Positions 7,088 to 39,886 of a DNA stretch of 43,371 nucleotides are shown one piece after another (the stretch's first letter is position 1; every line of letters starts with the position of its first letter). Origin of the DNA: Eggerthellaceae bacterium (GTDB lineage Bacteria > Actinomycetota > Coriobacteriia > Coriobacteriales > Eggerthellaceae); NCBI GenBank assembly GCA_017459925.1, contig JAFUCC010000015.1, positions 1 to 43,371 of the forward strand, in the 5' to 3' direction. The position numbers were made by a program, and so were the translations under genes. The notes beneath the pieces were generated by a model. That model did no database searches. It was given only the letters and a program-made list of their open reading frames with translations, and was not told the origin of the DNA.

Positions 7088-7166
7088 AGTACCTTCCCTT
7101 TCTTTTCCTATTGCCTTTCCCTTTTCCGTAAAGGCGGGCTGAAAGCCCACCCTGCGAAACCAAACG

Positions 7167-7640
7167 TTACAGTGCGACGGGGTCGGTGACGGACACCTTG
7201 TGGTCGTACCAGTTGCCGTGCTCGCCGATAATCGCGACGTTGAATTCCTCGTCGAGCGCCGGCACGGGAACGTCGAACCCGTACACCTCTTCAGTAGCCC
7301 CATCCTCGTACGTCACCGTGTCGGTCGTAGGCTGGATGAGGTTCGCCTCATCGTTTTTCGCGTCGGCTGCGGTTCCGTAGTAGAGGTTCGTGATCTTCTT
7401 CGAGGTCAGGTGGATGTGAATCGCCATGCCGTCATCGGAAACCGTGAGCACGCCCTTGCCGTCGTCGGCTTCGTTGATGTGGAACATAGTGCTGTCGGTG
7501 TGGAACGTGGCGGAGTATTCGCCATTGGCCAACCCCGAAGCAGATGCGGCGCTCGAGCTCGCTCCCGAAGAGCACCCGACGAGCGCCATGGCCATGACGA
7601 CCATTGCGGCGACGGCGATCATGCCGACAATGCGTTTCAT
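7167..7640 (-). CDS. Small lipoprotein with NEAT-like metal/porphyrin-binding domain
   Basis: 157 residues from MKRIVGMIAV, with an upstream GAGGGG. Lipobox ALVGC is followed by a Ser/Ala linker and one beta-rich domain (GEYSATFHTD ... FDVPVPALDEEFNV ... WYDHKVSVTD). The alternation, length and terminal strands resemble NEAT (iron transport-associated) domains, and the same module seems to be fused to the binding protein at 4114-5649. It is the first gene after the cobalamin riboswitch. A short hairpin (7136-7148) separates it from cbiK. Surface capture of heme, cobalt-porphyrin or corrinoid is inferred; the NEAT assignment is by eye. Confidence 0.7.
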   Translation of the reverse strand: MKRIVGMIAVAAMVVMAMALVGCSSGASSSAASASGLANGEYSATFHTDSTMFHINEADDGKGVLTVSDDGMAIHIHLTSKKITNLYYGTAADAKNDEANLIQPTTDTVTYEDGATEEVYGFDVPVPALDEEFNVAIIGEHGNWYDHKVSVTDPVAL

Positions 7641-7794
7641 ATACGTACGTCCCCTCCAAACGTAAACGTTGCGCACCCCTTGCGAGCGCGCAGCACATGC
7701 AGATGACTTGTTGTCGGGGACGTCAGGACACGCCTCGAAGCCGCATGAAGCGGGCTTCGATGAGCGTGTCGCCGGGGTTCACAGCGACAAGGCT

Positions 7795-7910
7795 CTGCTG
7801 AGCAGGCTGGGTATCCTGACTTGGCGACATGCGCCTAACAGTAATGGCCCTTGTCCGGGACTTCCACCCGGTTCCCCCAGCACGTCCGCATGCGCGGTAC
7901 GCTGGCTGCT
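7795..7910 (-). promoter_or_regulatory. Cobalamin riboswitch
   Basis: On the minus strand the core reads, in order: GGGGGAACCGGGTGGAAGTC, CCGGACAAGGGCC, TTACTGTTAGGC, then the B12-box-like GTCAGGATACCCAGCCTGC. These match the conserved cobalamin riboswitch pieces (GGGAA..CCGGTG.AA.TCCGG, ACTGT, AGTCAGGA.ACC.GCC). A downstream stem, TCGAAGCC/GGCTTCGA near 7735-7765, may belong to the expression platform. It precedes the NEAT-like lipoprotein gene by about 150 bases and would lower expression of the lipoprotein-cbiK-importer cluster when B12 is plentiful. Confidence 0.9.
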
Positions 7911-7942: not shown

Positions 7943-8165
7943 CGACTTTGGAATTCGCGCGTGGATGCCTTCAAAGGAATGCCGACCAACATCACGAAAT
8001 TTGTGCAAAAGGACGAACTTTCGCAAATCGCCGACCAGTACGCTAATTGATGGTGACAGGTCTGTTCAGCTCTTATAAAATCTTTTTATACCTATGGAAG
8101 GGTGGTAATAGGAAGTCCGCATTCGATATTCGACTGCGGGCGGTTTTATTAAGGGAGGGTTTACC
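7943..8165. other. Gap upstream of the HTH gene; possible coding remnant
   Basis: A plus-strand frame from about 7951 to the TGA at 8050 reads RVDAFKGMPTNITKF, then ELSQIADQYAN and stop, which has a natural protein look and could be the last 30 residues of a lost gene. There is no start or upstream homology, so it is not called a gene. Past 8050 there is only AT-richer sequence and the Shine-Dalgarno of the next gene. Confidence 0.25.
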
Positions 8166-11968: not shown

Positions 11969-12832
11969 TTACGCGGCCTTCTTATGATAGGCGACCCAGT
12001 ACACGAGCCCCACCATGATGGCGCCGCCGACGATGTTGCCGAGCGTTGCCAAGCCGATGTTGTAGCAGGCGCCTCCCACGTTGACGGCCTGCGTAATGGC
12101 GTCGAGCTTGGCGGCGTCGATGTCGCCGACGTATCCGTACGTGTTAAGCGCGGCGATGCCCATAGGCAGGAAGAACATGTTGGCCACGCAGTGCTCGAAG
12201 CCGCAGGCGACGAACGCCATGACCGGGAAGATCGACGTGAACACCTTGTCGATGACCGTACGGCCGGCAAAGCCCATCCACACCGCCAGGCACACGAGCC
12301 AGTTGCACATGATGCCGCGGAAGAAGATGACCTGAGGTGCCAGCGAGATCTTCGAATACGCCACGTTGATCATAGCGTTGCCCACCGCCCCGCCGTTCAT
12401 GCCGGCGAAGTTACCGCCGATGAGCAGCGCGACGATGATGAGCGAACCCACCAAGTTACCGATGTAGACGATGACCCAGTTCTTGATCATCGCGCCCCAG
12501 CTGATCTTGTTGCTGGCAGCAGCGCAGACCATCAGGCAGTTGCCGGTGAACAGCTCGGCGCCGGCCACGATGACGCACAAAAGGCCCAGCGCGAAGCACA
12601 GGCCGCCGAGCACCTGCGACGCTGCGAACGGCAATGTGGTGTCGCCCTTCACGAGTAGCATGAACGTCGCGCCCGTGGCGATCATCATGCCGGCCATGAT
12701 GGACAATGCGAATGCCGGGGCGATGTCGAGCTTGGTTTTCCCAATCGCAACGTTCTGCGCCTGGGTGAACAGCGCCGCAGCGCCCCGGCAATCGGGCTTC
12801 GCGGCGGCCACCTCTTTCTTCAGTTCTTCCAT
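11969..12832 (-). CDS. focA: Formate/nitrite transporter FocA-type channel
   Basis: 287 residues, six predicted membrane helices. Both FNT signatures are present: AGAELFTGNCL and FEHCVANMFFLPMGI. FNT channels move formate, nitrite, hydrosulfide or lactate as monovalent anions or acids. Its place directly after hydA and downstream of the Fhs-FchA-FolD genes makes formate by far the most likely substrate, importing it for Fhs or exporting it after CO2 reduction. Palindrome B1 lies between hydA and this gene. Confidence 0.9.
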   Translation of the reverse strand: MEELKKEVAAAKPDCRGAAALFTQAQNVAIGKTKLDIAPAFALSIMAGMMIATGATFMLLVKGDTTLPFAASQVLGGLCFALGLLCVIVAGAELFTGNCLMVCAAASNKISWGAMIKNWVIVYIGNLVGSLIIVALLIGGNFAGMNGGAVGNAMINVAYSKISLAPQVIFFRGIMCNWLVCLAVWMGFAGRTVIDKVFTSIFPVMAFVACGFEHCVANMFFLPMGIAALNTYGYVGDIDAAKLDAITQAVNVGGACYNIGLATLGNIVGGAIMVGLVYWVAYHKKAA

Positions 12833-12851
12833 GCCTCTCCTCGTTTCCTCA

Positions 12852-12878
12852 AATCAATTACCTCGGAGGAAATTGATT
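12852..12878. repeat. Palindromic element B1
   Basis: AATCAATT(A)CCTCGGAGG(A)AATTGATT, a near-perfect palindrome of the B family. It falls between the hydA stop and the focA start; the right half adjoins hydA's end. Confidence 0.75.
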
Positions 12879-12885
12879 CTCTTTC

Positions 12886-14604
12886 TTAGATATCCCACGT
12901 CTCCTGAGCGGTGTGCAGCCACTCGTGTGACGTGTGACCCAAAGGTTCGCCGAGGACGTCGGCGTACAGCTTCTGGATGTCCGGGTTCTCGTGCGAATAG
13001 CGCAGCGTGTCGGCCGCGTCGAGCGCGTTCAGGTTGGCGGCGCGCACCTGCGCGAGCTCCTGGTTGAACGCGATGGGCTGGCCACCGCCGCCGACGCAAC
13101 CGCCCGGGCAGGCCATGATCTCGACGAAGTCGAGGTCGACCTCCCCCGCCTCGATGGCGTCGAGCAGCTTGGCCGTGTTGCCGAGGCCGCTTGCCACGGC
13201 GATGCGCACGGGCGTGCCGGCGACGTTGAGCTCCTTCGTGACCCAGGGCTTCTCGGGCGTCGAAGCCGTCGTGTCGCATGCCGAGAAGTCGGGGTTCTCG
13301 CCCGTGATCAGGAACACGGCCGAACGCAGCGCGGCCTCCATGACGCCGCCCGTGCGTCCGAAGATCGTGCCCGCTCCCGTGGAAAGGCCCAGCGGGTTGT
13401 CGAACTCGGTTTCCTCGAGCTTCGCACAGTCGACGCGGAACATCTTCAGCATGCGGTCGAACTCGCGCACGGTCAGCACGGCGTCGACGTCGCGACCGGC
13501 ATCAGTCGAAAGCTGCGGCACGTCGCATTCGTACTTCTTGGCCACGCACGGCATGATCGACACGACGAACACGCGCTTGCCGTCTTCGTCGGCTGCGGCC
13601 TTCATCGTGTTCTTCACCACGGCGCCCATCATCTGATGCGGCGACTTGGCGGACGAAAGCTGGCCCACGAACTGCGGGTAGTGCAGCTTCGCGAAACGCA
13701 CCCAACCCGGGCAGCAGCTCGTGAACATCGGGCGCTTCTTCTCGGAGGACATGAACTGCACGAACTCGCTGCCCTCTTCCATGATGGTGAGGTCGGCCGC
13801 GAAGTCGGTGTCGAAAACCTTGTCAAAGCCGAGGGCGCGCAAAGCGGCCGCCATGCGGCTGGGCGTCGCCTCCTCGCGGGCAAGGCCGAGCGGCTCGCCC
13901 CAAGCGGCGCGCACGGCGGGAGCCACCTGCACGACCGTGATGACATTGGGGTCGGCCAGCGCGTCCATGACCTTGGGAATGTCGCGGCGCGCGGTCAGGG
14001 CGCCCGTCGGGCAGTGCGTGATGCACTGGCCGCAAAGCGCGCAGCCGGCTGTGTCGATGTTCAAGCCGTCCTTCACGGTGACCTTCATGTGCGGTCCGCT
14101 TCCCGTGAAGTCCCACACGGCGCAGTGCTGCACCTTCTCGCATTCGGCCACGCAGCGCATGCACTTGATGCACTTGCTGGAATCGCGCACGAGCGGGAAC
14201 TCCTCGTCCCAAACGCCTTTGGGCGGCTCGGCGTCGAACGGCAGCGTCTGGATGCCGAAATCGGCGGTCAGGTGGCGCAGCGCGCAGGTTTCCGAACGCG
14301 CGCAGGTCGTGCACTCGCTGCGGTGCTCGGAAAGGATCATCTGCAGGTTGGTCTGGCGGGCGCGCACCACGGCGGGCGTGTTCGTGCGGACGGACATGCC
14401 CTCGCGCACCGGCGTGTTGCATGCGGCGGCCATGCGCTCCTCGCCTTCGACCTCGACGACGCACACGCGGCACGCGCCGATGTCGTTGATCTTCTTCATC
14501 CAGCACAGCGTCGGGATGTCCACACCAGCGGCTTTCGCAGCGCCGAGGATGGTCATGCCCTCGCGGGCCTCGACAGTACGGCCGTCTATCGTCAGCGCTA
14601 CCAT
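12886..14604 (-). CDS. hydA: [FeFe] hydrogenase catalytic subunit HydA
   Basis: 572 residues from MVALTIDGRTVEA; a longer frame inside the upstream gene is rejected. Domains in order: [2Fe-2S] (Cys34, 45, 48, 62), His-Cys3 [4Fe-4S] (His94, Cys98, 101, 107), two ferredoxin [4Fe-4S] (Cys145/148/151/155 and 188/191/194/198), then the H-cluster domain with TSCCPGW (295-301, including the proton-relay Cys298), MPCVAKKYE (351-359) and MACPGGCVGGGGQP (497-510). All cluster ligands are intact. It interconverts H2 with protons and electrons in the cytoplasm. Its ATG overlaps the upstream electron-transfer gene by seven bases, so the two products very likely form one complex. HydEFG maturases are not in the window. 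Confidence 0.95.
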   Translation of the reverse strand: MVALTIDGRTVEAREGMTILGAAKAAGVDIPTLCWMKKINDIGACRVCVVEVEGEERMAAACNTPVREGMSVRTNTPAVVRARQTNLQMILSEHRSECTTCARSETCALRHLTADFGIQTLPFDAEPPKGVWDEEFPLVRDSSKCIKCMRCVAECEKVQHCAVWDFTGSGPHMKVTVKDGLNIDTAGCALCGQCITHCPTGALTARRDIPKVMDALADPNVITVVQVAPAVRAAWGEPLGLAREEATPSRMAAALRALGFDKVFDTDFAADLTIMEEGSEFVQFMSSEKKRPMFTSCCPGWVRFAKLHYPQFVGQLSSAKSPHQMMGAVVKNTMKAAADEDGKRVFVVSIMPCVAKKYECDVPQLSTDAGRDVDAVLTVREFDRMLKMFRVDCAKLEETEFDNPLGLSTGAGTIFGRTGGVMEAALRSAVFLITGENPDFSACDTTASTPEKPWVTKELNVAGTPVRIAVASGLGNTAKLLDAIEAGEVDLDFVEIMACPGGCVGGGGQPIAFNQELAQVRAANLNALDAADTLRYSHENPDIQKLYADVLGEPLGHTSHEWLHTAQETWDI

Positions 14605-16424
14605 TTGTCGGGCCTCCCTCCACGCAGCGGGCCCATGCCGAAGTGATCGCACCTCAGGCAACGACCGCATTCCTGTGCAGCCTCCTCATCGCGCAGCGGG
14701 ATCTCCACGCCGTCGAAATCGGCTCCGCGTTCGTCGGCCGGACGTTCATGAATGTTCACACGGCCGCACGCCAGCTTGCTGTCGAACACCGACCGCGGAA
14801 TGTGCACGTCGTCGAAGACGTCGTGGCCGTATCCCAGATAGGCGTCGATGTTGGCGGCCACGGCCTTGCCGGCGGCGATGGCGCGGATGACCGTGGACGG
14901 GCCCGTTTGGCAGTCGCCGCCCACGAACACGTTGTCGAAGCCCTTCGCCAGGCCATGCCCGTCGGACACGAAACGGCCGCGGTTCTGCTCGAGGCCCTTC
15001 TCGGCGAAATACTCGTATTCGATGACCTGGCCGATGGCCTCGACCAGGATGTCGCATTCGAAGACCTGCTCGCCGGCCTCGGTTGCTTTGGGCGCGGGAC
15101 GTCCGCCGCGGTAGAAGCTCGGCATCTGCGGCTGGCCCACGAAGGCGATCTCGTGATCGGTGCCCTTGTCGATGCGGACCGGGCTCATGAGCTCAACCAT
15201 CTCGCAGCCTTCGGCGATGGCGGCTTCCACTTCCTCGGGAAGGGCCGTCATGTCCTCGATGCGACGACGGTAGATGCAGCGCACGCTCGCAGCACCCAGG
15301 CGCTTGGCCGTGCGCGTGGCGTCCATGGCGACGTTGCCGCCGCCCACGACCACGACGTCCTTGCCGGCGACGTCGTCGGGACGGCCGTCAGCCACGCGGT
15401 GCAGGAACTGCACGGCGCTCATGACGCCTTCGCGCGTGGCGTACTCTATACCCAGATCCTTGAAATGGTGCGCGCCGATGGCAACATACACGGCATCGTA
15501 GCCCTCGACGAGCTCTTCCCACTGCACGCCGACGCCGACCTTCACGCCCAGCTTCACATCGATGCCGAGCGAGAGTATCGCGTCGATGTCGTACTGCAGG
15601 TTCTCTTCGGGCAGGCGGTAGCGCGGGATGCCGTAGTACATCATGCCGCCCAGATGCGCGTTCTGCTCGTACACGGTGATGTCGTGGCCCATGAGCGCCA
15701 GGTAGTACGCGGCGGTGAGGCCCGACGGGCCGCCGCCGATGATGGCAACCTTCTTGCCGGTCGCCGGCGCCTTCTCGGGCGCGTCAACCGCGCCGGCGGT
15801 GAGCACCGCATGCTGCTTCATGCCGCGGATGTTCACGGGCGCGTCGATCATGCCGCGACGGCATGTATGCTCGCAGGGATGCTCGCACACGAACGCGCAG
15901 GCGCTCGGGAACGGGTTGTCGTTGCGGATGACGCGCACGGCGTCGGCCGGGCGACCGTCGCGCAGGCACGCGATGTAGCCGGGGATGTCCACGTGGCTCG
16001 GGCATTCCTTCACGCACGGCACCGCGGTGAACGGCTGCGTGCACACGCCCTTGGCCAGGTGGCTTTCGGCGTCTTCCTTGATGAGGTCGGCGAAAGCCAA
16101 ACCCACGCGACCCGCTTGGAAGCCTATGGCGCAGTCAGCCGACTTGTACAGCGTGTCGCAAACCATGATGACCTGGTCGACGATGCCCTCGACATGCTCG
16201 CCGCGAAGAATCGACTCCAAGCCGTCGGCCAGACGCGCCAGGCCGATGCGACACGGCGTGCACTTGCCGCAGCTCTGCGAAGCGCAGAGCTTAAAGAAGC
16301 CCACGGCGGTTTCGAGCGGGCACGTGGAATTGCCATACACCGACACGCGGTTGATGACCGCGTCGGCGATGACGCGCGCTTGCTCATCGGCCTTCGTGGG
16401 TGCGAAAACAGGTAACCTGCTCAC
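14598..16424 (-). CDS. NuoF-stub/GltD-type flavoprotein, electron-transfer partner of HydA
   Basis: 608 residues from a GTG start (AAAGGGGAACC upstream). Residues about 25-120 match only the C-terminal [4Fe-4S] domain of NuoF/HydB (SCGKCTPCRIG, Cys52/55/58, fourth ligand Cys98). The FMN/NADH-binding core of NuoF is absent. From about 125 the protein is GltD/NfnB-like: Cys-rich segment (VPCVKECPSHVDIPGY; CAFVCEHPCEHTC), FAD loop GGGPSGLTAAYY, NAD(P) loop VVVVGGGNVAMDATR, and a C-terminal ECGRCLRCDHFG. It should oxidise or reduce NAD(P)H at FAD and pass electrons through its clusters to HydA. NADPH versus NADH cannot be decided by eye. Upstream is an inverted repeat GCCCGCAT/ATGCGGGC (16446-16467). 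Confidence 0.85.
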   Translation of the reverse strand: MSRLPVFAPTKADEQARVIADAVINRVSVYGNSTCPLETAVGFFKLCASQSCGKCTPCRIGLARLADGLESILRGEHVEGIVDQVIMVCDTLYKSADCAIGFQAGRVGLAFADLIKEDAESHLAKGVCTQPFTAVPCVKECPSHVDIPGYIACLRDGRPADAVRVIRNDNPFPSACAFVCEHPCEHTCRRGMIDAPVNIRGMKQHAVLTAGAVDAPEKAPATGKKVAIIGGGPSGLTAAYYLALMGHDITVYEQNAHLGGMMYYGIPRYRLPEENLQYDIDAILSLGIDVKLGVKVGVGVQWEELVEGYDAVYVAIGAHHFKDLGIEYATREGVMSAVQFLHRVADGRPDDVAGKDVVVVGGGNVAMDATRTAKRLGAASVRCIYRRRIEDMTALPEEVEAAIAEGCEMVELMSPVRIDKGTDHEIAFVGQPQMPSFYRGGRPAPKATEAGEQVFECDILVEAIGQVIEYEYFAEKGLEQNRGRFVSDGHGLAKGFDNVFVGGDCQTGPSTVIRAIAAGKAVAANIDAYLGYGHDVFDDVHIPRSVFDSKLACGRVNIHERPADERGADFDGVEIPLRDEEAAQECGRCLRCDHFGMGPLRGGRPDKW

Positions 16425-16474
16425 GGTTCCCCTTTCCCTCTCTCGCCCGCATCCCTCTTATGCGGGCCCCCAAA

Positions 16475-16566
16475 CAATCAATTTCCTCCGAGGAAATTGA
16501 TTGCCTTGCACTATCCTTGGCTTTTGTATGGCTTTCGCAATCAATTACCTCGGAGGTAATTGATTG
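16475..16566. repeat. Paired palindromic element B2/B3
   Basis: Two perfect 29-base palindromes (16475-16503 and 16538-16566) share CAATCAATT.CCT at their ends and differ only at the centre. They are 34 bases apart, forming a two-hairpin unit. The unit fills the 160-base gap between folE and the HydA-partner gene. Confidence 0.85.
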
Positions 16567-16584
16567 TCACAAGAGCAAGAAAAA

Positions 16585-17166
16585 CTACTTGAACAGCGAC
16601 AGCGCCTCGGCCCTGGTCTTCTCGTCTTCTTGGAAAGAGCCGCGCACGGCGCTGGTGATGGTTAGCGAGCCCGGCTTCTTGATGCCGCGCGCCGTCATGC
16701 AGCTGTGCTCGGCCTCGACCACGACGAGCGTGCCGAGCGGCTCGAGCGACTTCATGATGGCATCGGCAATCTGCGAGGTCATGCGCTCCTGCACCTGCGG
16801 ACGGCGGGCGTAGCCTTCCACGCAGCGGGCGATCTTGGACAAGCCGGTGATGCGCCCCTTGCGCGGGATGTAGGCGACGTGGGCCTTCCCCACGAACGGC
16901 AGCAGGTGATGCTCGCACATCGACGTGAACGGGATGTCGCGGACGATGACCATTTCCTCGTGATCTTCCTCGTGGAATTGCTTCAGCAGATGCTCGGCAG
17001 GATCTTCCTGCAACCCAGCAAACACCTCGGCGCACGCGCGGGCCACGCGCGAAGGCGTGTCGAGCAGGCCCTCGCGGTCGGGGTCTTCGCCGATGGCATA
17101 CAGGAATTCGCGGATCGCCGCCTCGGCGCGCGGTTGATCGAGTTTGCCATACGTGGATTCAGCCAT
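16585..17166 (-). CDS. folE: GTP cyclohydrolase I
   Basis: 193 residues, strong GGGGGG ribosome site. Contains the zinc and active-site pattern CEHHLLPF (Cys84, His87) and [12 protein letters not shown] (Cys156), plus [17 protein letters not shown] and [10 protein letters not shown], typical of FolE type IA. It makes dihydroneopterin triphosphate from GTP, the first step of (tetrahydro)folate synthesis. Placement among tetrahydrofolate C1 genes suggests co-control of cofactor supply and use. A GC-rich hairpin at 17215-17243 separates it from folD. Confidence 0.95.
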
Positions 17167-17214
17167 GGAAGACCCCCCTTATCGTCTTGATGATGCGACC
17201 ATCGTAAAGCCTGA

Positions 17215-17243
17215 CGGCGGGCGCAATCAAGCAGCGCCCGCCG
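17215..17243 (-). terminator. GC-rich hairpin between folD and folE
   Basis: A perfect 10-base stem CGGCGGGCGC/GCGCCCGCCG with a nine-base loop. No U-run follows, so it may attenuate rather than stop transcription. Confidence 0.5.
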
Positions 17244-17253
17244 AACGGAACCT

Positions 17254-18108
17254 CTACGCCAGCGTACGCTCAGCAGCCTGCACGATATGCGACGCGAGCA
17301 CTGCCGTCGTGACGCTTCCCACGCCGCCGGGAACAGGCGTGATGGCGTCGACGATGGGCTCGGCAGCGTCGAAGTCGACGTCGCCGCAAAGCTTACTCGC
17401 CTCTTCGTCCCAGTTGATGCCCACGTCGATGACGACCTGGCCCTTGCGCACCGCGTCGGCGCCCACCGTGCGCGCACGGCCCACGGCCACGACCAGCACG
17501 TCGGCCTCGGCGCACTTGGCGGCGAGCTCCCTGGTGCGCGTATGGCACATGGTGACGGTAGCGTTGGCAGCCTGCAGCATCATGGAGACGGGCTTGCCGA
17601 TGACGAGCGAGCGGCCCAGAACGGTGACGTTCGCGCCGGTCAGCTCGTAGCCGTAATGCTTCAAAACCTGCATGCAGGCGTCGGCCGTGCACGGCGGGAA
17701 GCCCACCGGCTGGTTGGCGAACACGCCGTACAGCGAGCCCTGCGTGATGCCGTCGGCGTCTTTCGCCGGGTCGAGGGCGGCGCAGGCCGCGACCTCGTCG
17801 AGGTGCTTGGGCAGCGGGCGGAACATGAGGCAGCCGTGAATCGCCGGGTCGGTGTTGACCTCGTTGATGGCGGCCATGAGCTCTTCTTGGGTGCACTCGG
17901 CGTCGAGCACGAACTTCTTTAGGCCCAGGCCCAGCGTCTCGCAGCGCTTCGTGGCGCCGCGCTCGTACGACAGGTCGTCGTCGCGCTCGCCCACGCGGAT
18001 GATGGCCAGCGTCGGCGTGACGCCCGCAGCCTTGCAAGCCTCGATACGCGGAGCCAGCTCTTCGTTGATGGCGTCGGCAACCGGCTTGCCCTTCAAGATT
18101 TCTGCCAT
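17254..18108 (-). CDS. folD: Methylene-tetrahydrofolate dehydrogenase FolD, probably lacking cyclohydrolase activity
   Basis: 284 residues, ribosome site GAAAGGA. FolD hallmarks: GCLMFRPLPKHLDE, FPPCTADACMQVL, the Rossmann segment GRSLVIGKPVSMML and PGGVGSVTTAVLASHIV. In bifunctional FolD the pattern is Y-x-x-x-K, with the Lys (K54 of E. coli, K56 of the human enzyme) essential for cyclohydrolase. Here it reads YERGA, so the position is Ala52, with a Lys two residues later. A separate cyclohydrolase, fchA, lies next door. I infer a dehydrogenase-only enzyme oxidising or reducing methylene/methenyl-THF. Confidence 0.92.
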   Translation of the reverse strand: MAEILKGKPVADAINEELAPRIEACKAAGVTPTLAIIRVGERDDDLSYERGATKRCETLGLGLKKFVLDAECTQEELMAAINEVNTDPAIHGCLMFRPLPKHLDEVAACAALDPAKDADGITQGSLYGVFANQPVGFPPCTADACMQVLKHYGYELTGANVTVLGRSLVIGKPVSMMLQAANATVTMCHTRTRELAAKCAEADVLVVAVGRARTVGADAVRKGQVVIDVGINWDEEASKLCGDVDFDAAEPIVDAITPVPGGVGSVTTAVLASHIVQAAERTLA

Positions 18109-18125
18109 AAAACGGTCCTTTCCGA

Positions 18126-18236
18126 GATGAGTAGCAGGACGTTCCTGCTACTCATTTTGTAGAACGGTTTCCACACATTAAAGAGATACTGCAAATGAGT
18201 AGCAGGAACGTCCTGCTACTCATCCTGCTACTCATC
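18126..18236. repeat. Palindromic element A4
   Basis: Arms at 18126-18159 and 18192-18224 with a 32-base spacer, then a partial extra copy CTGCTACTCATC running up to the fchA stop codon. It fills nearly the whole gap between fchA and folD. Confidence 0.85.
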
Positions 18237-18860
18237 TTACGCGCGGATGCCGGCGGCGACTTCGTCGGCCACGGCCTTGGCGCGGGGGACGTATGCGAGC
18301 AGCTCGTCAGCCTCGGCCTCGACCTTGGCGGCGTACTCGCGGTCCTTCAGGCCCTTGGTGTTGATGAACACGTTCATGGAAGCGGCGCGCATAGCGGCAG
18401 CGGCGCACACGGCACCGCAGCCCACGTCGCTGATCAGCATGCGCGAGCCCTTCACGTTCATCTCCTCGAGCAGCTCGATCGCCTTGGCGATCTGGCGCAT
18501 CATCTCGAGCGGGCCGGCCAGCGCGTCCTTGGTGCACTTTTCCAGCACCTCGTCGCGCGTCGAATCCTCTTTGGGGATGCCGTAAGCCTGGGACAGCGGG
18601 TAGAACGCGGCGGCGTCCTCCTCGACGAGCTCGAGCAGACGGGCGCGGACTTGCTCGCCTTCGGCCAGCATGCGCTGCACGTCTTCCTCGTACTCGGCGT
18701 ACTTCTTCTTGCCGGTGGTGAAATTGCCCACCATCGAGCACAGGGCCACGCCCAAAGCGCCCACGTAGGCGGCTGCTCCGCCGCCACCCGGCACGCTGAC
18801 CTTGCCGGCCAGCTCGGCTGCGAACTCGGTACAGCTCTTGTCCATCATCTTGTCAGTCAT
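18237..18860 (-). CDS. fchA: Methenyltetrahydrofolate cyclohydrolase FchA (cyclodeaminase family)
   Basis: 207 residues, ribosome site AAGGAG. All-alpha FTCD_C/FchA family: SVPGGGGAAAYVGALGVALCSMVGNFTTGKKKY near the start and SDVGCGAVCAAAAMRAASMNVFINTK in the second half. It hydrolyses methenyl-THF to formyl-THF or runs the reverse. Neighbours fhs and folD catalyse the steps on either side. The FolD here lacks its cyclohydrolase lysine, which makes FchA the necessary enzyme for this step. Confidence 0.93.
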   Translation of the reverse strand: MTDKMMDKSCTEFAAELAGKVSVPGGGGAAAYVGALGVALCSMVGNFTTGKKKYAEYEEDVQRMLAEGEQVRARLLELVEEDAAAFYPLSQAYGIPKEDSTRDEVLEKCTKDALAGPLEMMRQIAKAIELLEEMNVKGSRMLISDVGCGAVCAAAAMRAASMNVFINTKGLKDREYAAKVEAEADELLAYVPRAKAVADEVAAGIRA

Positions 18861-18878
18861 CTGCGCTCCTTACAGAAA

Positions 18879-18903
18879 GGGGCGAGCAAAGCCTGCCCGC
18901 CCC
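18879..18903 (-). terminator. Hairpin between fhs and fchA
   Basis: GGGGCGGGC...GCTCGCCCC on the minus strand followed by TTTCTGT. It is the same sequence type as the terminator at 10408-10431. Partial read-through is likely if the C1 genes form an operon. Confidence 0.6.
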
Positions 18904-18921
18904 CGTAGTAGCTTCTTTCCC

Positions 18922-20589
18922 TTAGAAAAGACCCACGATCTTGCCGTCAGCGGTGACGTCGATCTTCTCGGCAGCCGGGACCTTCGGGAGCCCTGGCATG
19001 GTCATGATCTCGCCGGTCAGCGCCACGATGAAGCCAGCGCCAGCGGAGATCTTGAGGTTGCGCACGGTGATGCGGAAGTCCTTCGGGGCGCCCAGCTTGG
19101 TCTGGTCGTCGGTGAAGGAGTACTGCGTCTTGGCAACGCAAATGGGCAGCTTGTCGAAGCCGTTGGCCACGAGCTGGTCGAGCTGCTTCTTGGCCTTCGG
19201 GGTGAAGTCGACGCCGTCGGCGTGGTAGATCTTCGTGGCGATGGCGTTGAGCTTCTCCTCGATCGTCTGGTCGACTTCGTAGCTGAACTTGAAGTCGTTG
19301 GGCTGGTCGCAGACGCGCACGACTTCCTCGGCGAGCGCCGTGGCGCCCTCGCCGCCCTTGGCCCAATGCTCGGCGAGCACGGCATTGACGCCGAGCTCCT
19401 TGCACTTGGCCTGGACGAGCTCGAGCTCGGCCTGGGTGTCGGTCGGGAACGCGTTGATGGCGACGACCGCGGGAAGGCCGAAGACGTTCTGGATGTTGGA
19501 GACGTGCTGCAGCAGGTTCGGCAGGCCAGCCTCGAGGGCCTCGAGGTTCTCGTTGTTCAGGTCGGCCTTGGCAACGCCGCCATTGTGCTTGAGGGCGCGG
19601 ACCGTGGCGACGATGACGACGCAGGACGGCTGGATGCCCGCATAGCGGCACTTGATGTCGAGGAACTTCTCGGCACCCAGGTCAGCGCCGAAGCCGGCCT
19701 CGGTGACGACGTAGTCGGCCATCTTCAGGGCCGTCGTGGTGGCCTGGACGGAGTTGCAGCCATGGGCGATGTTGGCGAAGGGGCCGCCATGCACGAACGC
19801 CGGGTTGTTCTCGAGCGTCTGGACCAGGTTCGGCTTGATGGCGTCCTTCAGCAGGGCGGCGCAAGCGCCCTCGGCCTTGATGTCGGCCACGGTGACGGGC
19901 TTGCCGGAACGGCTGTAGGCGACGACCATGCGGCCGAGGCGGGCCTTCAGGTCGTCAAGGTCGGTGGCCAGGCAGAACACGGCCATGACCTCGGAGGCGA
20001 CGGTGATGTCGAAGCCGTCTTCGCGGGCCACGCCGTCACCGGCGGTGCCGAGGCCGTCGACCACGTTGCGCAGCTGGCGGTCGTTCATGTCGACGCAGCG
20101 GCGCCAAATGATGTTGTTCAGGTCGATGTCGAGCTCGTTGCCCTGCTTGATGTGGTTGTCGAGCATGGCGGCGATGAGGTTGTTCGCAGCGCCGATGGCG
20201 TGGAAGTCGCCGGTGAAGTGCAGGTTGATGTCCTCCATGGGGACGACCTGGGCGTAACCGCCGCCAGCCGCGCCGCCCTTCACGCCGAACACGGGGCCCA
20301 GCGACGGCTCGCGCAGCGCGAGCATCGAGGACTTGCCAATCTTGCACAGCGCGTCATGCAGGCCCACCGACGTGGTGGTCTTGCCCTCGCCGGCCGGCGT
20401 GGGGTTAATGGCGGTAACCAGGATGAGCTTGCCCTTCATGGGCTTATCCTTGTAGGAGTGGATGTCGACCTTGGCCTTGTAGTGACCATAGGGCTCGCAC
20501 GTAGCCCAGTCGATGCCGGCCTTCTCCGCTACCTCTTTGATCGGCAGCATCGTCGCTTCCTGTGCGATCTCGATGTCGGACTTCGCCAT
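18922..20589 (-). CDS. fhs: Formate-tetrahydrofolate ligase
   Basis: 555 residues, the usual size, with ribosome site AAAGGAGG. P-loop-like ATP site [20 protein letters not shown] at about 62-81; also [20 protein letters not shown] and [20 protein letters not shown], all diagnostic of Fhs. It joins formate to THF with ATP, the entry step of the Wood-Ljungdahl methyl branch, and can run in reverse to make ATP. It is flanked by metF-V and fchA in the same direction. Confidence 0.96.
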
Positions 20590-20832: not shown

Positions 20833-22464
20833 TTACGGCAGCTTCGTGTCGACCTTCTTCAGCAGGTCGGTTTCCGGGATGATGCCGCCCGGCGCACCGG
20901 TTTCCAGGCCCAGCGACACGGGGATGCGGCCCTCGCAGTTGTCGCGGTGATGCGTGTAGGCGCTCCACGGGCTGGAGCTGTACAGCTCCCAGTGGTTCGG
21001 CGGGGTGATGTAGCTGGTGATGCGCTCCATCTCGTCGGACTTCTTCGCCTTGTGGTAAGCCTTGTACCAGATGCAGTAACGGCTGCCATCCGGGAAGACC
21101 TCGCAGTAGCCGTCGAAGGTGCCGCCGCACGGCCCGTTGCGCTGGCATTTGGGGCATTGCGTCATCGGGCACGTGTACAGCGTGGCTTCCAGACCGCAGT
21201 CGCCGCAGTCCATGCAGCCGTACATCATCGACTTGCCAGTATGCTCGAGGCCGTGGTGGCGGTACACGCCCTTCTTGTTGTCGAGCGAGTTCATGCGGCT
21301 GGCGAGGATCTTGTTGCCGCGCTTGCCGAGGGTGAGCACCCAGTGGTGCGCGAAGCGGGAGATGCCCCACTTGCTGAAGACCTTGCGCGAGCGCGCCTGC
21401 TCGGGCTTCGGGCTCTTAGCAGGCGTGTTCAGGCCGGTGAGGTTGCCCTCTTCGTCCTTCTCAGGCTGGTAGATGTAGTAGCCGTCCTTCTTGCCGAAGC
21501 TGACCTTCTTCACGCATTCGCGCCATGTCGGAGCCAGTTCCTCGGCGCGGTCGAGGATGCCGCAGAGCATCTCGGCCGTGACGCCGAAGCCGCCGATGTG
21601 CACGCCGGCGTAACCGAGGCCCTTGGCGATGGCGACCATCTGGGCGGCGCGCTCGATGCGGGCGCCCTTGCCCTTGTCCTCGGCCTTCGATTCCTCTTCA
21701 AGCTGGGCGAGCAGCTCGTCGCTGACGTAGCAGCCGGCGATGGTGCCCTTCTTCATGAGCTTGGCCGCGCCCTTGGTGATCAGGAAGATGTTAGCGATGA
21801 TGGGCGTGTCGTAGCCGCGCTCGTCGCGGTAGCGGATGAGCTCTTCCATCTTCCGCGCGTCGTAGCCGAGCTGCGTGATGAGGAACCTCGCGCCGCCGAT
21901 GATCTTCTTTTCCATCTTCAGGTACTGCGGGATGACCTCGCCTTCAAGGTACTTGAAGGGGTTCACGACGCCGCCGTTGTAGAAGTGCGTCTGCTTTTCG
22001 ATGACCGGACCCTTGCGTCCGGGGACTTCCAGGCCGTTGTTCATCTCGGTGGCGAGCATCTGCAGGTGCACCGAGTCGAGGTCGAAGACCGGGCGTGCGC
22101 GGCCGTCCCAGCCGGTGCCCTGGTAGTCGCCCGTCATGAACAGGAGGTTCTCGATGCCGGCGCGCTCCATGCTGTAGAGCTGCGAGATGATCTGGTTGCG
22201 CGAGCGGTCCTTGCACGTGAAGTGCACGAGCGGCACGATGCCCTCGCTGACGAACTCCTCGCCGAGGCGGTCGGCCAAAAGCGCCGGGTTGCCGCTCGGA
22301 TTGTCCGTGATGGACATCGCGTGAACGCGCCCCGTCGCATAGATTTTCTTGGCTTCTTCGATTTCCTTTTCCTGAGCTTCCTCGTGCGCGCCGCGCCCGG
22401 GAATGATTTCGCAGGTTACGACGAACTCGCCTCTCTCGAGCGCGTCCTTGAATCGATTCTCCAC
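20833..22464 (-). CDS. metF: Methylene-tetrahydrofolate reductase, MetF-MetV fusion
   Basis: 543 residues from a GTG start at 22464 with AAAGGGG seven bases upstream; an ATG 17 codons earlier has no ribosome site. Residues about 1-300 are the MetF TIM barrel (FVVTCEIIPGRGA, MSITDNPSGNPA, ENLLFMTGDYQGTG, GARFLITQLGYD, ANIFLITKGAAKLM). The C-terminal part carries a cysteine cluster (GCMDCGDCGLEATLYTCP, then QCPKCQRNGPCGG) typical of the zinc-binding MetV subunit, which acetogens usually encode as a separate gene. It reduces methylene-THF to methyl-THF, the methyl donor for corrinoid proteins. An operator-like dyad lies about 120 bases upstream. Confidence 0.92.
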   Translation of the reverse strand: MENRFKDALERGEFVVTCEIIPGRGAHEEAQEKEIEEAKKIYATGRVHAMSITDNPSGNPALLADRLGEEFVSEGIVPLVHFTCKDRSRNQIISQLYSMERAGIENLLFMTGDYQGTGWDGRARPVFDLDSVHLQMLATEMNNGLEVPGRKGPVIEKQTHFYNGGVVNPFKYLEGEVIPQYLKMEKKIIGGARFLITQLGYDARKMEELIRYRDERGYDTPIIANIFLITKGAAKLMKKGTIAGCYVSDELLAQLEEESKAEDKGKGARIERAAQMVAIAKGLGYAGVHIGGFGVTAEMLCGILDRAEELAPTWRECVKKVSFGKKDGYYIYQPEKDEEGNLTGLNTPAKSPKPEQARSRKVFSKWGISRFAHHWVLTLGKRGNKILASRMNSLDNKKGVYRHHGLEHTGKSMMYGCMDCGDCGLEATLYTCPMTQCPKCQRNGPCGGTFDGYCEVFPDGSRYCIWYKAYHKAKKSDEMERITSYITPPNHWELYSSSPWSAYTHHRDNCEGRIPVSLGLETGAPGGIIPETDLLKKVDTKLP

Positions 22465-22585
22465 CAGATCACCCCTTTCAATATGCTGATGATATACACG
22501 AATCTTATCCTGCATTATCTAACGAAAGAATAGGGTTTTTCTCACAGTTGGTCATTCAATGCTTTGCACAAACCGCACAAGAAGC

Positions 22586-22606
22586 CATTGTGCGAAATGC
22601 ACATGA
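22586..22606. promoter_or_regulatory. Operator-like site upstream of metF
   Basis: CATTGTGCGAAATGCACATG-A matches the dyad before the alcohol dehydrogenase gene (11781-11801) at 15 of 21 positions, including the central TGCGAAAYGCA. Nearby GCACAA half-sites at 22566 and 22576 add to the pattern. The 308-base gap 22465-22772 also contains the inverted repeat at 22617-22663 and the promoter of the next gene. Confidence 0.5.
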
Positions 22607-22616
22607 GCCAAAAGTC

Positions 22617-22663
22617 GCCTCGACAACGGGCGAATGCTACCGTGGAAGCACCGTTGTCGAGGC
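22617..22663. repeat. 13-base inverted repeat between divergent genes
   Basis: GCCTCGACAACGG at 22617-22629 and its exact complement at 22651-22663, with a 21-base spacer. It lies between the metF and HTH-HipA promoters and may be a terminator or insulating hairpin. Confidence 0.5.
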
Positions 22664-22702
22664 GTATGGGACGTTCTATATCTCTGCCAGTTTTGCGGTT
22701 TA

Positions 22703-22759
22703 ACTATTCGCTATAACGAATGGTATAATCTACGCAGAATAAAATTATTACTATTCGCT
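22703..22759 (+). promoter_or_regulatory. Promoter and repeated operator of the HTH-HipA gene
   Basis: A perfect TATAAT is at 22724-22729. An exact 10-base direct repeat ACTATTCGCT lies at 22703-22712 and 22750-22759, bracketing the -10 box and the expected start point. The first copy is part of a dyad ATTCG-N6-CGAAT. The layout suggests autorepression by the encoded HTH domain. Confidence 0.55.
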
Positions 22760-22772
22760 GCAAGGAAGGCTT

Positions 22773-24119
22773 ATGGGAGACAAGATCTCGAGCGAAGAGG
22801 CCGCACGCAGGCTGTCTATCACGCAACGCCGCGTGCAAGAGCTCGTCAAGGCCGGCTCGCTCAGCGCCGAGAAGGTGTCAGGCGTGTGGCTTATCGACGC
22901 AGACTCGGTCGACAAGCGGGCGCGGGAAGTCAACAAGCGGGGCGGAAGGCCAGCGCGCGGCAAGGGGGCGAACGAGGCCACCTTCACGCTGATGAACCGC
23001 ACCCACGAGATTGCCGAGGTTGTGTACGACGCCAAGCGCATGGAGTTCACCTCGTTCGGCGAGCTCGTCGATGAAGCGCGCGCTCCCATCGGGGTTGCCC
23101 CTGCCGGCGGCCGCATCTTGCTTGCCGACTTCAACCGTTGGTGGCGCAACCGGGGCATTCCCATTACGCGCCTCGGCCTCGACCGCCTGTTGCGCGATGC
23201 AGGGGTAGCGGTTCCCGAAGAGCTGATACAGCGAAACCTCGGCCTGTCCCTTTCCGACCAATACTGGATCCGCCCTGCGGAATCGCACCTTGCATGGGAA
23301 GAGGTCAATTTCTTCCACAACGACTTCGAAGAAGTCGCCGAGCATACCGCCCCCTACGCATCCTCCCCCTCCGTTCGCGCCGAGCCCGCGAACACGTCCG
23401 ATGGCAACCTGGAGAAGACGTGGATTGTGCGCGATGGAGCGCGCTTGCTGCAGAAAGGCAGCTCCCATAACGGGCAGGAGCCATATAACGAGGTCGTCGC
23501 AACGGCGCTTCACCGACGCCTGCTCTCGCCGGGCTGCTATGTCGAATACACGCTCGAAGGCGAAGGGGCATCGGCATTCAGCCTGTGCGCTGATTTCATC
23601 GCTGACGACGAAGAGTACATCCCGGCGATGTACGTGCAGCGGACTTTGACGGAGCAAGTAGGGCGCAACGAGTACGAGCACTACCTCGCCTGCTGCGAGG
23701 CTTTGGGCGCGCACGGCGCCAAAGAGGCGCTCGACCAGATGATCATCTGCGACGACATCATCGCCAACCACGACCGCCATTTCCGCAACTTCGGAATCGT
23801 GCGCAACGTCGAAACGCTGGGGTGCCGCCCCGCCCCGCTCTTCGACTCGGGATCGAGCCTCTGGTGCGATGTCGACGAGAAGACGCTCGCACAGGGGGAA
23901 CGCGGCTTTTCGAGCAGGCAGTTCTACCCCAACCCGGCACGCCAGCTGCTCCTCGTCGAGGACTTCAGCTGGTTCGACGCGTCGCGGCTCGAGGGCTTCG
24001 TCGACGAGGCGATAGCCATCTTGGCAGGCAATGAGGCACTCGAACGTCGCCTACCCTATATTCGCTCCGCCCTGGAGTGGCGCATCGGCCGCATGGCCGA
24101 CATCGCCGAATGGTCGTAA
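22773..24119 (+). CDS. HTH domain fused to a HipA-like kinase
   Basis: 448 residues, ribosome site AAGGAAGG. Residues about 5-50 are an excisionase/MerR-type HTH (SSEEAARRLSITQRRVQELV ... VWLIDADSV). Residues 65-170 hold a second conserved module of unknown function. From about 210 a HipA/CtkA-like kinase fold follows: LLQKGS (Lys228), ICDDIIANHDRHFRNFG with catalytic Asp334, and PLFDSGSSL with metal-binding Asp358. HipA toxins are usually paired with a separate HipB repressor; here the DNA-binding part is on the same chain. Direct repeats at its promoter support self-regulation. Target unknown, and toxicity is inference. Confidence 0.8.
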   Translation: MGDKISSEEAARRLSITQRRVQELVKAGSLSAEKVSGVWLIDADSVDKRAREVNKRGGRPARGKGANEATFTLMNRTHEIAEVVYDAKRMEFTSFGELVDEARAPIGVAPAGGRILLADFNRWWRNRGIPITRLGLDRLLRDAGVAVPEELIQRNLGLSLSDQYWIRPAESHLAWEEVNFFHNDFEEVAEHTAPYASSPSVRAEPANTSDGNLEKTWIVRDGARLLQKGSSHNGQEPYNEVVATALHRRLLSPGCYVEYTLEGEGASAFSLCADFIADDEEYIPAMYVQRTLTEQVGRNEYEHYLACCEALGAHGAKEALDQMIICDDIIANHDRHFRNFGIVRNVETLGCRPAPLFDSGSSLWCDVDEKTLAQGERGFSSRQFYPNPARQLLLVEDFSWFDASRLEGFVDEAIAILAGNEALERRLPYIRSALEWRIGRMADIAEWS

Positions 24120-24186
24120 GCGCAAAGCGCGTTACATAAGCTTCTGCGCAGATGATATGCGATTTCTTGCGGTACAATTTTATAGT

Positions 24187-24198
24187 TTAAGCGCTTAA
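24187..24198. promoter_or_regulatory. 12-base palindrome upstream of the LysR-corrinoid gene
   Basis: TTAAGCGCTTAA, followed by TAAGCGC and TTTAAG partial repeats, within 45 bases of the GTG start. A possible autoregulatory site for the LysR domain. Confidence 0.4.
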
Positions 24199-24230
24199 CA
24201 CCTAAGCGCGACGTTTAAGGAGGTGATGGC

Positions 24231-25787
24231 GTGGACATTTCGCAGATGCGCATGATGCTCGTGCTTGCCGAGTGCAAGTCGATGACCACCACTGCGAAGA
24301 AGCTGCACGTGACGCAACCCGCCCTCACCTACCAGCTGAAGGCCATTGAAAGCGAGTTGGGCTTCAAGGTGTTCAACCGCACGCGCACCGGCACGTCGCT
24401 GACCGCCGAGGGCGCGTTTCTGCACGAGACCATCAAGGGCATCGTGGCGGAATACGACGAGACCGTGCGCCTGGCGCGCGCCATGGCCAAGGGCGGTGCG
24501 GCCGGCACCATCCGCGTGGGCGTGAACAACTGCTCGCGAGACAGCATCTCGTTCTTGCTGAGCATGGCGCAGGCGACCGCGCAGTTCTCGCTGATTCCCA
24601 TCGGCTCGTCCGACCCGATTCGCCTGCTACGCGAAGGGGTCATCGATTTCTGGTCGACCTCCGAAGCGTCGATGGTCGATGCACCGCAGTCGCTGCGGTT
24701 CGCCGAGCTCAGCATGTCGGGGCAATCGGCGTTCGTGCCGAAAGACCATCGCCTCGCACGCAAGGTGGCGATAAAGCTTGACGACTTGGAAGGCGAGACC
24801 GTGTGGCTCTGGCCCCGTGGCACCACGTCGCTCGCGTCCGACCAGATTCGCGACCAGCTCGAGGAAACGGGCGCCGACATCGCGGACCTCATCTTCGGCG
24901 TTCCCGCGCTCGTCGCCGCGTTCATGGACGACGACGTGGTGGTCTACGACGACGGCTTCCTGCCGCCTTCATCTCAAGCGGCCATAAAGGTGCCGATAAT
25001 CGACGCGCCCCGCGACACGCTGGGGCTCGTGTACCTCGCCTCGCAACAGGAACGCCTCGCGCCCATCATCGACAAGCTGAAGAGCCGCACGCCCCATGGC
25101 AGGGGACGCACGGTCACCCAGTCGGAAATCGCGGCTGAGCGCATCGTGTCGGTGCTCGACGAGATCAGCGCCACGGTGCGGCGCGGCGGCATGAAGGACA
25201 TCGTGCCGCTCGTCGAATACGGCCTAGAGCTCGGCATCTCCGCGCACCATCTGTTGAACCGCGGCTTGCTGACGGGCATGAACGACATGGGCGACTTGTA
25301 TCGGGATGGCGAGGTCTTCATGGCGGACATGATGGCCTCCATCTCGACCACCAACCTGGCCATGGACGTGCTGCAACCGTATATCGCCATCGAGGACCAG
25401 CACCCGGTTTCGGGGTCGGCTGCCATCGGCACCGTCATCGGCGACGCGCACGACATCGGCAAGAACCTCGTGCGCATCATGCTGGAAAGCCGCGACATCA
25501 ACGTGACCGACCTGGGAACCGAGGTCGCTCCCGAGGCGTTCGTAGAACACGTGAAGAACAACCCGGACTGCAACCTCATCCTCATCTCGGTGAACCAATC
25601 CGAGCTGCTGGACGAGGGACGCAAAGTCGTGGAAGCGCTGAAGAAGGCGAAACTGCGCGACCAGCTGTTCATCATGGTCGGCGGCGCGGCAGCCGACGAG
25701 TCGTTCGCGGGCATCATCGGCGCGGATGCCTTCACGAGCAGCGCCGAAGACGCCGCCGAGACAGCGTACGAGTTCTTGAGCTTATAA
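24231..25787 (+). CDS. LysR-type regulator fused to a corrinoid-binding (MtaC/MetH-like) protein
   Basis: 518 residues from GTG, with AAGGAGGTGA upstream. Residues 1-60 are a LysR winged HTH (MRMMLVLAECKSMTTTAKKL, TQPALTYQLKAIESELGFKV). Residues 88-285 resemble a LysR effector domain (GTIRVGVNNCSRDS ... SAFVPKDHRLA). After a basic linker, 300-385 matches the helical cap of corrinoid proteins (LLNRGLLTGMNDMGDLYRDG, EVFMADMM). Residues 396-518 form the Rossmann B12 domain with GDAHDIG (Asp405-x-His407-x-x-Gly410; His407 would be the lower cobalt ligand), LISVNQS and MVGGAA. All modules appear intact in one frame. I infer a regulator that senses corrinoid or its methylation state; targets are unknown, but C1 genes are nearby. 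Confidence 0.9.
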   Translation: MDISQMRMMLVLAECKSMTTTAKKLHVTQPALTYQLKAIESELGFKVFNRTRTGTSLTAEGAFLHETIKGIVAEYDETVRLARAMAKGGAAGTIRVGVNNCSRDSISFLLSMAQATAQFSLIPIGSSDPIRLLREGVIDFWSTSEASMVDAPQSLRFAELSMSGQSAFVPKDHRLARKVAIKLDDLEGETVWLWPRGTTSLASDQIRDQLEETGADIADLIFGVPALVAAFMDDDVVVYDDGFLPPSSQAAIKVPIIDAPRDTLGLVYLASQQERLAPIIDKLKSRTPHGRGRTVTQSEIAAERIVSVLDEISATVRRGGMKDIVPLVEYGLELGISAHHLLNRGLLTGMNDMGDLYRDGEVFMADMMASISTTNLAMDVLQPYIAIEDQHPVSGSAAIGTVIGDAHDIGKNLVRIMLESRDINVTDLGTEVAPEAFVEHVKNNPDCNLILISVNQSELLDEGRKVVEALKKAKLRDQLFIMVGGAAADESFAGIIGADAFTSSAEDAAETAYEFLSL

Positions 25788-37192: not shown

Positions 37193-37219
37193 GGCCTCAC
37201 CTCCCCTTTCGACATCCTG

Positions 37220-37287
37220 GATGAGTAGCAGGACGTTCCTGATACTCATTTCGGGAAATGAGTATCAGGAACGTCCTGCTACTCATC
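37220..37287. repeat. Palindromic element A5
   Basis: Perfect 33-base arms (37220-37252, 37255-37287) with a two-base loop, the cleanest copy of the family. It lies between the two ABC exporter genes and is the source of a false MSIRNVLLLI extension on the downstream one. Confidence 0.9.
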
Positions 37288-37296
37288 TTCATCCCC

Positions 37297-39471: not shown

Positions 39472-39484
39472 GGCTAGCGCCTCA

Positions 39485-39886
39485 TCAGTTGAGCAGCATC
39501 GAGATGACCTGCGTGGCGTTGTATCCCACGCGCACCTCGTACGATCCGTCGGGGATGTTGGCATGGGCCGACGCCACGAGCTGTCCGTCCGCGTCGGTGC
39601 CGATGGTGAGGACTTCTGCCTTCACGTCGCCGACTTCCATTTCCATGCCAGCTTGAACCTTGCTCGCCTTCGCGGCGTCGTCGAACGTGACCGTGAGCTC
39701 GCCGCCATCAGCAATGGCTGTACCCGTGGCGTAGCTTTCGACCGTGGTGAAGCCGCTCCACAGAAGCAGGCCCACGATAATCAGCGCCACCGCCAAAAGC
39801 AGCAGCCAGATTTTCGGCGTGGTGACCTTCAGGTAGTCGTTGAGCTGCTCGGGCGAGGCTATCCTGCGCGCACCTTGGCCTTCCAT
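39485..39886 (-). CDS. Short HlyD-like adaptor of the peptide export system
   Basis: 133 residues. One membrane helix (IWLLLLAVALIIVGLLLWSG) after a 27-residue cytoplasmic start, then a short beta-rich domain (GTAIADGGELTVTFDDAAKASKV ... SYEVRVGYNATQVISMLLN). This resembles the membrane end and barrel part of NHLM secretion (HlyD) proteins, which are usually some 400 residues with a long coiled-coil hairpin. Here the hairpin is absent with no sign of a broken frame. It is likely a genuine mini-adaptor suited to a single-membrane cell. Confidence 0.7.
   Translation of the reverse strand: MEGQGARRIASPEQLNDYLKVTTPKIWLLLLAVALIIVGLLLWSGFTTVESYATGTAIADGGELTVTFDDAAKASKVQAGMEMEVGDVKAEVLTIGTDADGQLVASAHANIPDGSYEVRVGYNATQVISMLLN

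Follow-up and report, generated by a model that had tools for sequence, protein, structure and literature searches.

A LysR-type regulator joined to a corrinoid module near one-carbon genes in Eggerthellaceae

The fusion gene and its corrinoid module

The window, meaning the whole stretch of DNA analysed, comprises 43,371 nucleotides of an Eggerthellaceae bacterium (assembly GCA_017459925.1, contig JAFUCC010000015.1, positions 1-43,371, forward strand; genome code G000). Within it lies a gene for a LysR-type regulator joined, in one chain, to a corrinoid-protein module (Table 1). The reading frame is unbroken up to a stop codon ending at 25787, and its GTG start is preceded by a strong ribosome-binding sequence, aaggaggtgatggcGTG. 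A preliminary description had read the product as LysR helix-turn-helix, effector domain, corrinoid cap, and B12 Rossmann domain. The profile search bears this out: all four Pfam domains exceed their cut-offs, including the LysR_substrate match at residues 117-216 (2.8e-08, 33.8 bits versus a cut-off of 28). No MerR family is among the four Pfam families found at 0.001; the head is a LysR HTH_1.

Table 1. Features of the window, with coordinates, strand, and basis of assignment
Feature	Positions	Strand	Basis or remark
LysR-corrinoid fusion gene	24231..25787	+	518 aa, GTG start, stop included
LysR winged helix-turn-helix, residues 4-61	24240..24413	+	PF00126 (HTH_1), 8.1e-17, 61.4 bits vs cut-off 26.6
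LysR effector (regulatory) domain, about residues 91-285	24501..25085	+	PF03466 over 117-216; structural match 91-291
Four-helix corrinoid cap, residues 309-381	25155..25373	+	PF02607 (B12-binding_2), 2.5e-09; model helices 297-389
B12-binding Rossmann domain, residues 396-510	25416..25760	+	PF02310, 2.4e-13; Z 24.6 to 1y80
DxHxxG motif, Asp405-Gly410, with His407	25443..25460	+	D, H, G invariant in 12/12 fusions
metF (MTHFR + DUF5981), probable target, heads one-carbon run	20833..22515	-	Pfam; divergent from fusion in 8/13 loci
Interposed gene, excisionase-like HTH	22773-24119	+	Pfam: HTH_17 over cut-off, weak HipA_C under cut-off
Run downstream of metF	11969..20589	-	Pfam/NCBIfam for 5/7 genes
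Formate-THF ligase homologue	18922-20589	-	named from sequence
FolD homologue	17254-18108	-	named from sequence
TTTGCACAAA, candidate operator upstream of metF	22563..22572	+	exact copies at metF in 5 genomes
Second TTTGCACAAA, upstream of cobalt-chelatase/B12-uptake genes	8000..8009	-	only other exact copy in window
AdoCbl-riboswitch-like element before B12-uptake genes, not part of fusion	7759..7899	-	RF01482, under threshold

A split, mis-assembled, or chance reading frame is ruled out by 11 further full-length homologues, which share the layout and lack internal stops. In the two fusions from a second genus (G085 and G090), PF00126, PF02607, and PF02310 all exceed their cut-offs; PF03466 scores 38.5 bits in G085 and 25.2 bits, under the cut-off of 28, in G090. 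The window's own assembly has a second contig (G000:C101, L037) that repeats fusion residues 89-518 at 100% identity and the genes downstream of the fusion at 99-100%; this is probably assembly redundancy or a strain mixture.

The structure model was built from a 47-row alignment: 12 fusions, 1 truncated copy, 18 stand-alone corrinoid proteins, and 16 LysR proteins. Its mean pLDDT is 84.7, and because its pTM is low (0.48) the relative placing of the domains is unsure. Along the chain come the helix-turn-helix, a linker helix, a two-lobed effector domain that is complete, a poorly predicted inter-domain linker (residues 289-299), the four-helix cap, and the Rossmann domain. In structural alignments, which over whole chains give large rmsd, the N-terminal half matches CbnR and BenM (Z 16-17), and residues 91-291 match the effector domains of BenM and RipR. 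The C-terminal half matches 1y80 (Z 24.6 over 125 residues), MttC (23.4), and MtmC (22.7), and more weakly MetH (about 20), photocobilin (18.9), AerR (15.5), and CarH (15.3).

Among NCBIfam profiles, the C-terminal 200 residues are nearest MtgC (1e-36), TIGR02370 (1e-36), and MtbC (1e-32), with MetH weaker (3e-23). All four matches fall under the curated cut-offs. The scores are 126.2 versus 215.3 for TIGR02370 and 126.4 versus 370 for MtgC, a weak test given that a genuine stand-alone protein of genome G014 fails too (182.0 and 188.3). The solved structure that matches best in sequence is 1y80 (8.7e-30), followed by MttC (7xcn), 4jgi, and MtmC (3ezx); the N-terminal half is matched by LysR proteins. 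By sequence and by structural matches, the module is closest to methyl-carrying corrinoid proteins, and the methyltransferase-type cap first proposed is supported.

Conservation was judged across the 12 full-length fusions (the window's and 11 others, 49-95% identical to it). Asp405, His407, and Gly410 lie where they had been placed from the first reading, and they are invariant in all 12, as are Ser453, Gly484, and Gly485. His407 is presumably the lower ligand, a role carried over from corrinoid proteins. An SxL motif is a feature of methyltransferase corrinoid proteins; here the Ser (453) is always kept and the third residue is Asn, Ser, or Phe, with Leu in none of the 12, so tail binding may differ. 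Among the ten closer fusions, the helix-turn-helix has the highest mean pairwise identity (93%), ahead of the linker helix (76%), the cap and the B12 domain (73% each), the effector domain (62%), and the inter-domain linker (47%).

One-carbon and B12 genes, and regulatory DNA

Genes for LysR-type regulators are often divergent from their targets. In the window, metF and the fusion are divergent and 1.7 kb apart (22515 to 24231; 1.8 kb in the preliminary description), with one gene between. The link to metF proves stronger than was claimed, the two genes being divergent in 8 of 13 fusion loci: directly, at about 0.2-0.6 kb, in six (G007, G009, G005, G010, G006, and G058), and with genes between in the window and in G012 (2.6 kb). 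In G002, metF lies on the fusion contig about 6.3 kb off and is not divergent. The remaining four loci are unlinked: in G001 and G090 the two genes are on separate contigs, and in G014 (95% complete) and G085 the fusion is present without a metF match at 1e-60. Two further genomes lack the fusion yet have both metF and a stand-alone corrinoid protein: G089, and G008 (94% complete), which also has the window-type flanking metal-transport homologues. Across 19 genomes, 11 have both fusion and metF, 2 the fusion only, 2 metF only, and 4 neither (Fisher 0.046; descriptive only, for related genomes picked for the comparison, with G058 counted as fusion-bearing). The link is an association, not a rule.

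After metF, the run continues with the formate-THF ligase homologue, an FTCD_C cyclodeaminase, the FolD homologue, GTP cyclohydrolase I, a flavoprotein, an [FeFe] hydrogenase, and a formate transporter. Beside the hydrogenase, which is of the A6 type, a 608-residue protein (14598-16424, minus strand) combines an NADH_4Fe-4S region with a glutamate-synthase-like flavoprotein part. CODH/ACS (PF03598) was found in none of the 19 genomes, two control archaea being positive; these assemblies give no sign of a complete Wood-Ljungdahl pathway. A tblastn comparison with 11 loci at 1e-5 found no match to the gene interposed between metF and the fusion, and a 14-nucleotide perfect inverted repeat lies near this gene (22616-22664).

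Methyltransferase and transport genes appear in several of the loci. On the other side of the fusion, 4 of 13 loci carry an MTTB-family gene: G002 and G010 (within 0.1 kb), G006 (1.6 kb), and G012 (2.7 kb). Those of G002 and G010 end about 20 and 90 bp, respectively, from the fusion's stop, and none of the open reading frames called in these two stretches resembles a separate corrinoid protein. The window's own genome has no MTTB gene. BCCT transporters were confirmed in G010 (two genes), are represented by one partial gene in G005, and are named by sequence likeness in G012. A stand-alone corrinoid protein adjoins the fusion in G085 and lies 2.3 kb off in G090, where the fusion is also near genes that resemble, in sequence, those of cobalamin synthesis.

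Besides the fusion and its duplicate, G000 has a single cap protein (PF02607), and therefore no MetH by the cap test. Around the orthologous cap protein in G014 lie two URO-D proteins, a RACo-type activator, a hydantoinase-type protein, a pterin-binding protein, an MFS_2 transporter, and a PucR-type regulator; a partial run on a G000 contig resembles this one by sequence. Such a make-up would be expected for methyl transfer from methylated substrates to THF.

The window also holds a cobalt chelatase and B12-type uptake genes. The chelatase (5876-7303, minus strand) has its CbiK domain at residues 199-474, behind a 198-residue N-terminal extension without a Pfam match. Before the uptake genes lies the riboswitch-like element, which scores 32.5 bits versus a gathering score of 50 (E 3.2e-04 in a 501-base search); no riboswitch match reached the Rfam gathering threshold. 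G009 has a similar-looking sequence (L032, about 1120-1300). Also upstream of the uptake genes, at 8062-8095 (minus strand), an ATAAAAA-n2-TTTTATAA-like stretch followed by AGCTGA resembles, by eye only, an element just before metF in G012, G010, and others. Elsewhere in the window, at 35012-39564 (minus strand), is an NHLP-type bacteriocin export ABC transporter pair (NHLM_micro_ABC1 over its cut-off, ABC2 just under).

LysR-type regulators typically use a dyad operator of the T-N11-A type in the divergent promoter. A simple palindrome scan found no dyad or operator common to all loci. Binding sites near 24187, 22586, and 11781 had been proposed from the window alone. Of these, the inverted repeat around 22563-22596 is kept in G007; the palindrome at 24187 has no exact copy in the other loci (196 loci, the window's own L001 excepted).

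The shorter element TTTGCACAAA occurs exactly upstream of metF in G000, G007, G005, G010, and G012; the loci holding the metF promoters of G009, G006, G058, G002, G001, and G008 have no exact copy. Two exact copies in the window compare with a shuffle mean of 0.03, an expectation that overstates their weight for an element picked by eye after the promoters had been viewed; with one mismatch allowed, 30 of 100 shuffles match the observed count. Genome totals are six in G000 and five in G007, two of which are in corresponding places (upstream of metF, and between the same two genes as the second copy of the window). Against a reversed-pattern control, exact copies number 35 to 7 in the five genomes with the metF motif and 17 to 11 in the four others searched. 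Most of the other sites read have no evident one-carbon neighbour. (Six of the 14 copies in G012 fall into three pairs, each spaced by 148 bases, which probably belong to a repeated element.) As an operator, TTTGCACAAA is only a candidate.

Distribution and origin

The searches, which overlapped, extended to 61 relatives, 138 genomes of the family, 7 of the family of G058, and 395 of the order, and further even samples took in 346 genomes of the class and 296 of the phylum. In the order search, which like those of class and phylum scored only a few candidates per genome, 13 of the 395 genomes were positive: 12 with full fusions and G058, whose copy is cut by a contig end. Counting the window's own, 10 of the 15 genomes in its genus are carriers; the others are the two of a second genus in the same family, and G058. 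The class and phylum samples showed no further fusion; the profile survey covered Actinomycetota genomes only. None of 855 matching plasmid records had 80% coverage in one place. A contig scan with six short peptide patterns, which reaches close relatives only, gave six loci, all in Eggerthellaceae or Coriobacteriaceae assemblies (one from red deer, one from sheep ileum).

The corrinoid parts of the 12 fusions form one clade against 18 stand-alone proteins (support 100/100), and the LysR parts of 13 copies, G058 included, form one clade against 16 other LysR proteins (98/98), both trees carrying long-branch warnings. Each half being one clade, a single fusion event is the simplest reading.

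In G058, a genome from a different family of the order, a contig end cuts the copy off after residue 235, and a PF02607 search of the genome found nothing else. Over 299 residues, the formate-THF ligase of G058 shares 98.3% identity with that of the window, within the range of the window's genus (92.3-99.7%), while the LysR part of G058 is the most distant of the compared set (62%). The copy may reflect mis-binning, transfer, or a true presence.

Long frames matching the corrinoid half in two other genomes of the order, G024 (L013:1492-3267) and G667 (L194), are not regulators: by translation, each joins a methyltransferase-like protein to a corrinoid protein behind it.

Proposed function and known systems

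What can be claimed most safely is that the domain architecture has a single origin, is under constraint, and is tied by gene order to one-carbon genes. Beyond this, we lean toward a one-component LysR-type regulator of methyl/one-carbon metabolism that would sense either the methylation or the occupancy of its own corrinoid.

Three parts of this reading are inferred, namely corrinoid binding, DNA binding, and the signal, and they differ in strength. Sequence and predicted fold show that one chain supplies LysR DNA-binding and effector domains together with a complete cap-and-Rossmann module. Its invariant ligand residues and its kinship make it very probable that the module binds a cobamide through His407. 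Gene order makes it likely that the metF one-carbon genes are under the control of the fusion, as are neighbouring methyltransferase genes in some species. A change at the corrinoid would pass to the LysR regulatory domain and alter DNA binding by the oligomer. The signal itself can be named only tentatively: perhaps the state of the fusion's own corrinoid, methylated or not; or, a more doubtful choice, whether the corrinoid is occupied or empty, that is, corrinoid supply.

Stated in full, the methylation branch would have the fusion read Co-CH3 or its absence, and so act as a direct methyl-flux sensor, loaded by the same methyltransferases that supply the pathway, to switch the methyl-THF genes. 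This specific version is possible, though we would not call it probable. In the supply branch, the LysR protein would fold or oligomerise only when loaded, and metF and the uptake genes would follow cobamide availability instead of methylation. The cobalamin-synthesis-like genes near the G090 fusion fit such a sensor, as do the chelatase and uptake genes of the window, where TTTGCACAAA precedes both these and metF; we regard it as conceivable, with the balance somewhat against it. For the uptake genes there already seems to be an AdoCbl riboswitch, albeit below threshold. If real, that element already senses cobalamin at these genes, and this tips the balance slightly towards a methyl signal for the fusion. 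Moreover, availability alone would leave the recruitment of a methyl-carrier module, cap included, unexplained.

Rather than sensing for a regulator, the corrinoid half might be a working methyl carrier for a nearby methyltransferase, with the LysR half tuning expression to carrier load. The MTTB genes that end close to the fusion's stop in G002 and G010, with no separate corrinoid protein evident there, are what such a trigger enzyme would predict. Nevertheless, an MTTB gene is lacking in G000, the module stands apart from all 18 stand-alone proteins compared, and the Leu of SxL is lost, which together make this unlikely. It is similarly improbable that the module is a structural remnant or binds something else, such as haem, and leaves sensing to the LysR effector domain. 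That domain is complete in the model, and SCHIC domains of the B12-binding family do bind haem (available portion of PMC10734443); yet among the ten closer members it is the corrinoid parts that are better conserved, and the six invariant residues, from Asp405 to the paired glycines, are kept in every fusion.

A CarH-like light sensor using adenosylcobalamin is very hard to credit, light having been one of the signals considered in the preliminary description: cap and B12 domain in a transcription factor recall CarH, and one signature element, GxxH, is present (Gly404-x-x-His407, invariant in the fusions), but the cap stretch 300-392 has no Trp and no Glu-His in any of the 12 fusions, the fold is nearer methyl carriers than CarH, and the published B12-photoreceptor signature, in the accessible part of PMC11796333, includes GxxW and EH, with GxxH as third element and GxxxP as a further one (the comparison covered the first three).

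The preferred reading remains the one-component regulator that senses its own corrinoid. Its novelty as a sensor design, proposed at the outset, is supported only within the open-licence PMC literature that pairs LysR with B12 terms, where no LysR-corrinoid fusion was found described; the available portion of PMC10734443 is not about one, and a word search of the accessible text of PMC11796333 found no 'LysR'. The combination is that of a LysR-type regulator with a methyl-carrier type of corrinoid module, beside methyl-metabolism genes. If the reading is true, it would reveal protein-level sensing of methyl flux or cobamide supply by methyl-using gut anaerobes, and would offer a ready part for a methyl or cobamide biosensor.

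Four groups of known proteins invite comparison. CbnR and BenM share the helix-turn-helix, linker helix, and effector domain (Z about 16-17), and the fusion adds a 220-residue C-terminal corrinoid module. The AerR/PpaA antirepressors are likewise B12-domain proteins in gene regulation (Z 15.5 to AerR); AerR, unlike the fusion, is a co-regulator that acts on a separate DNA-binding protein, CrtJ (PMC9144470, portion available). CarH and LitR are transcription factors with cap and B12 domain in one chain (Z 15.3), and the B12-containing one-component regulators met in the literature are such MerR-headed light sensors (PMC11796333, accessible part). The fusion instead has a LysR head and an effector domain, lacks the light-signature Trp and Glu-His, and has one-carbon genes as neighbours. 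Finally, MtgC, MtbC, MttC, MtmC, TIGR02370, and 1y80 resemble the module in cap and B12 domain and in the DxHxxG and GG motifs. Methyltransferase corrinoid proteins are stand-alone carriers of about 210 residues, whereas the fusion's module, under the family cut-offs and without the Leu of SxL, sits behind a LysR protein.
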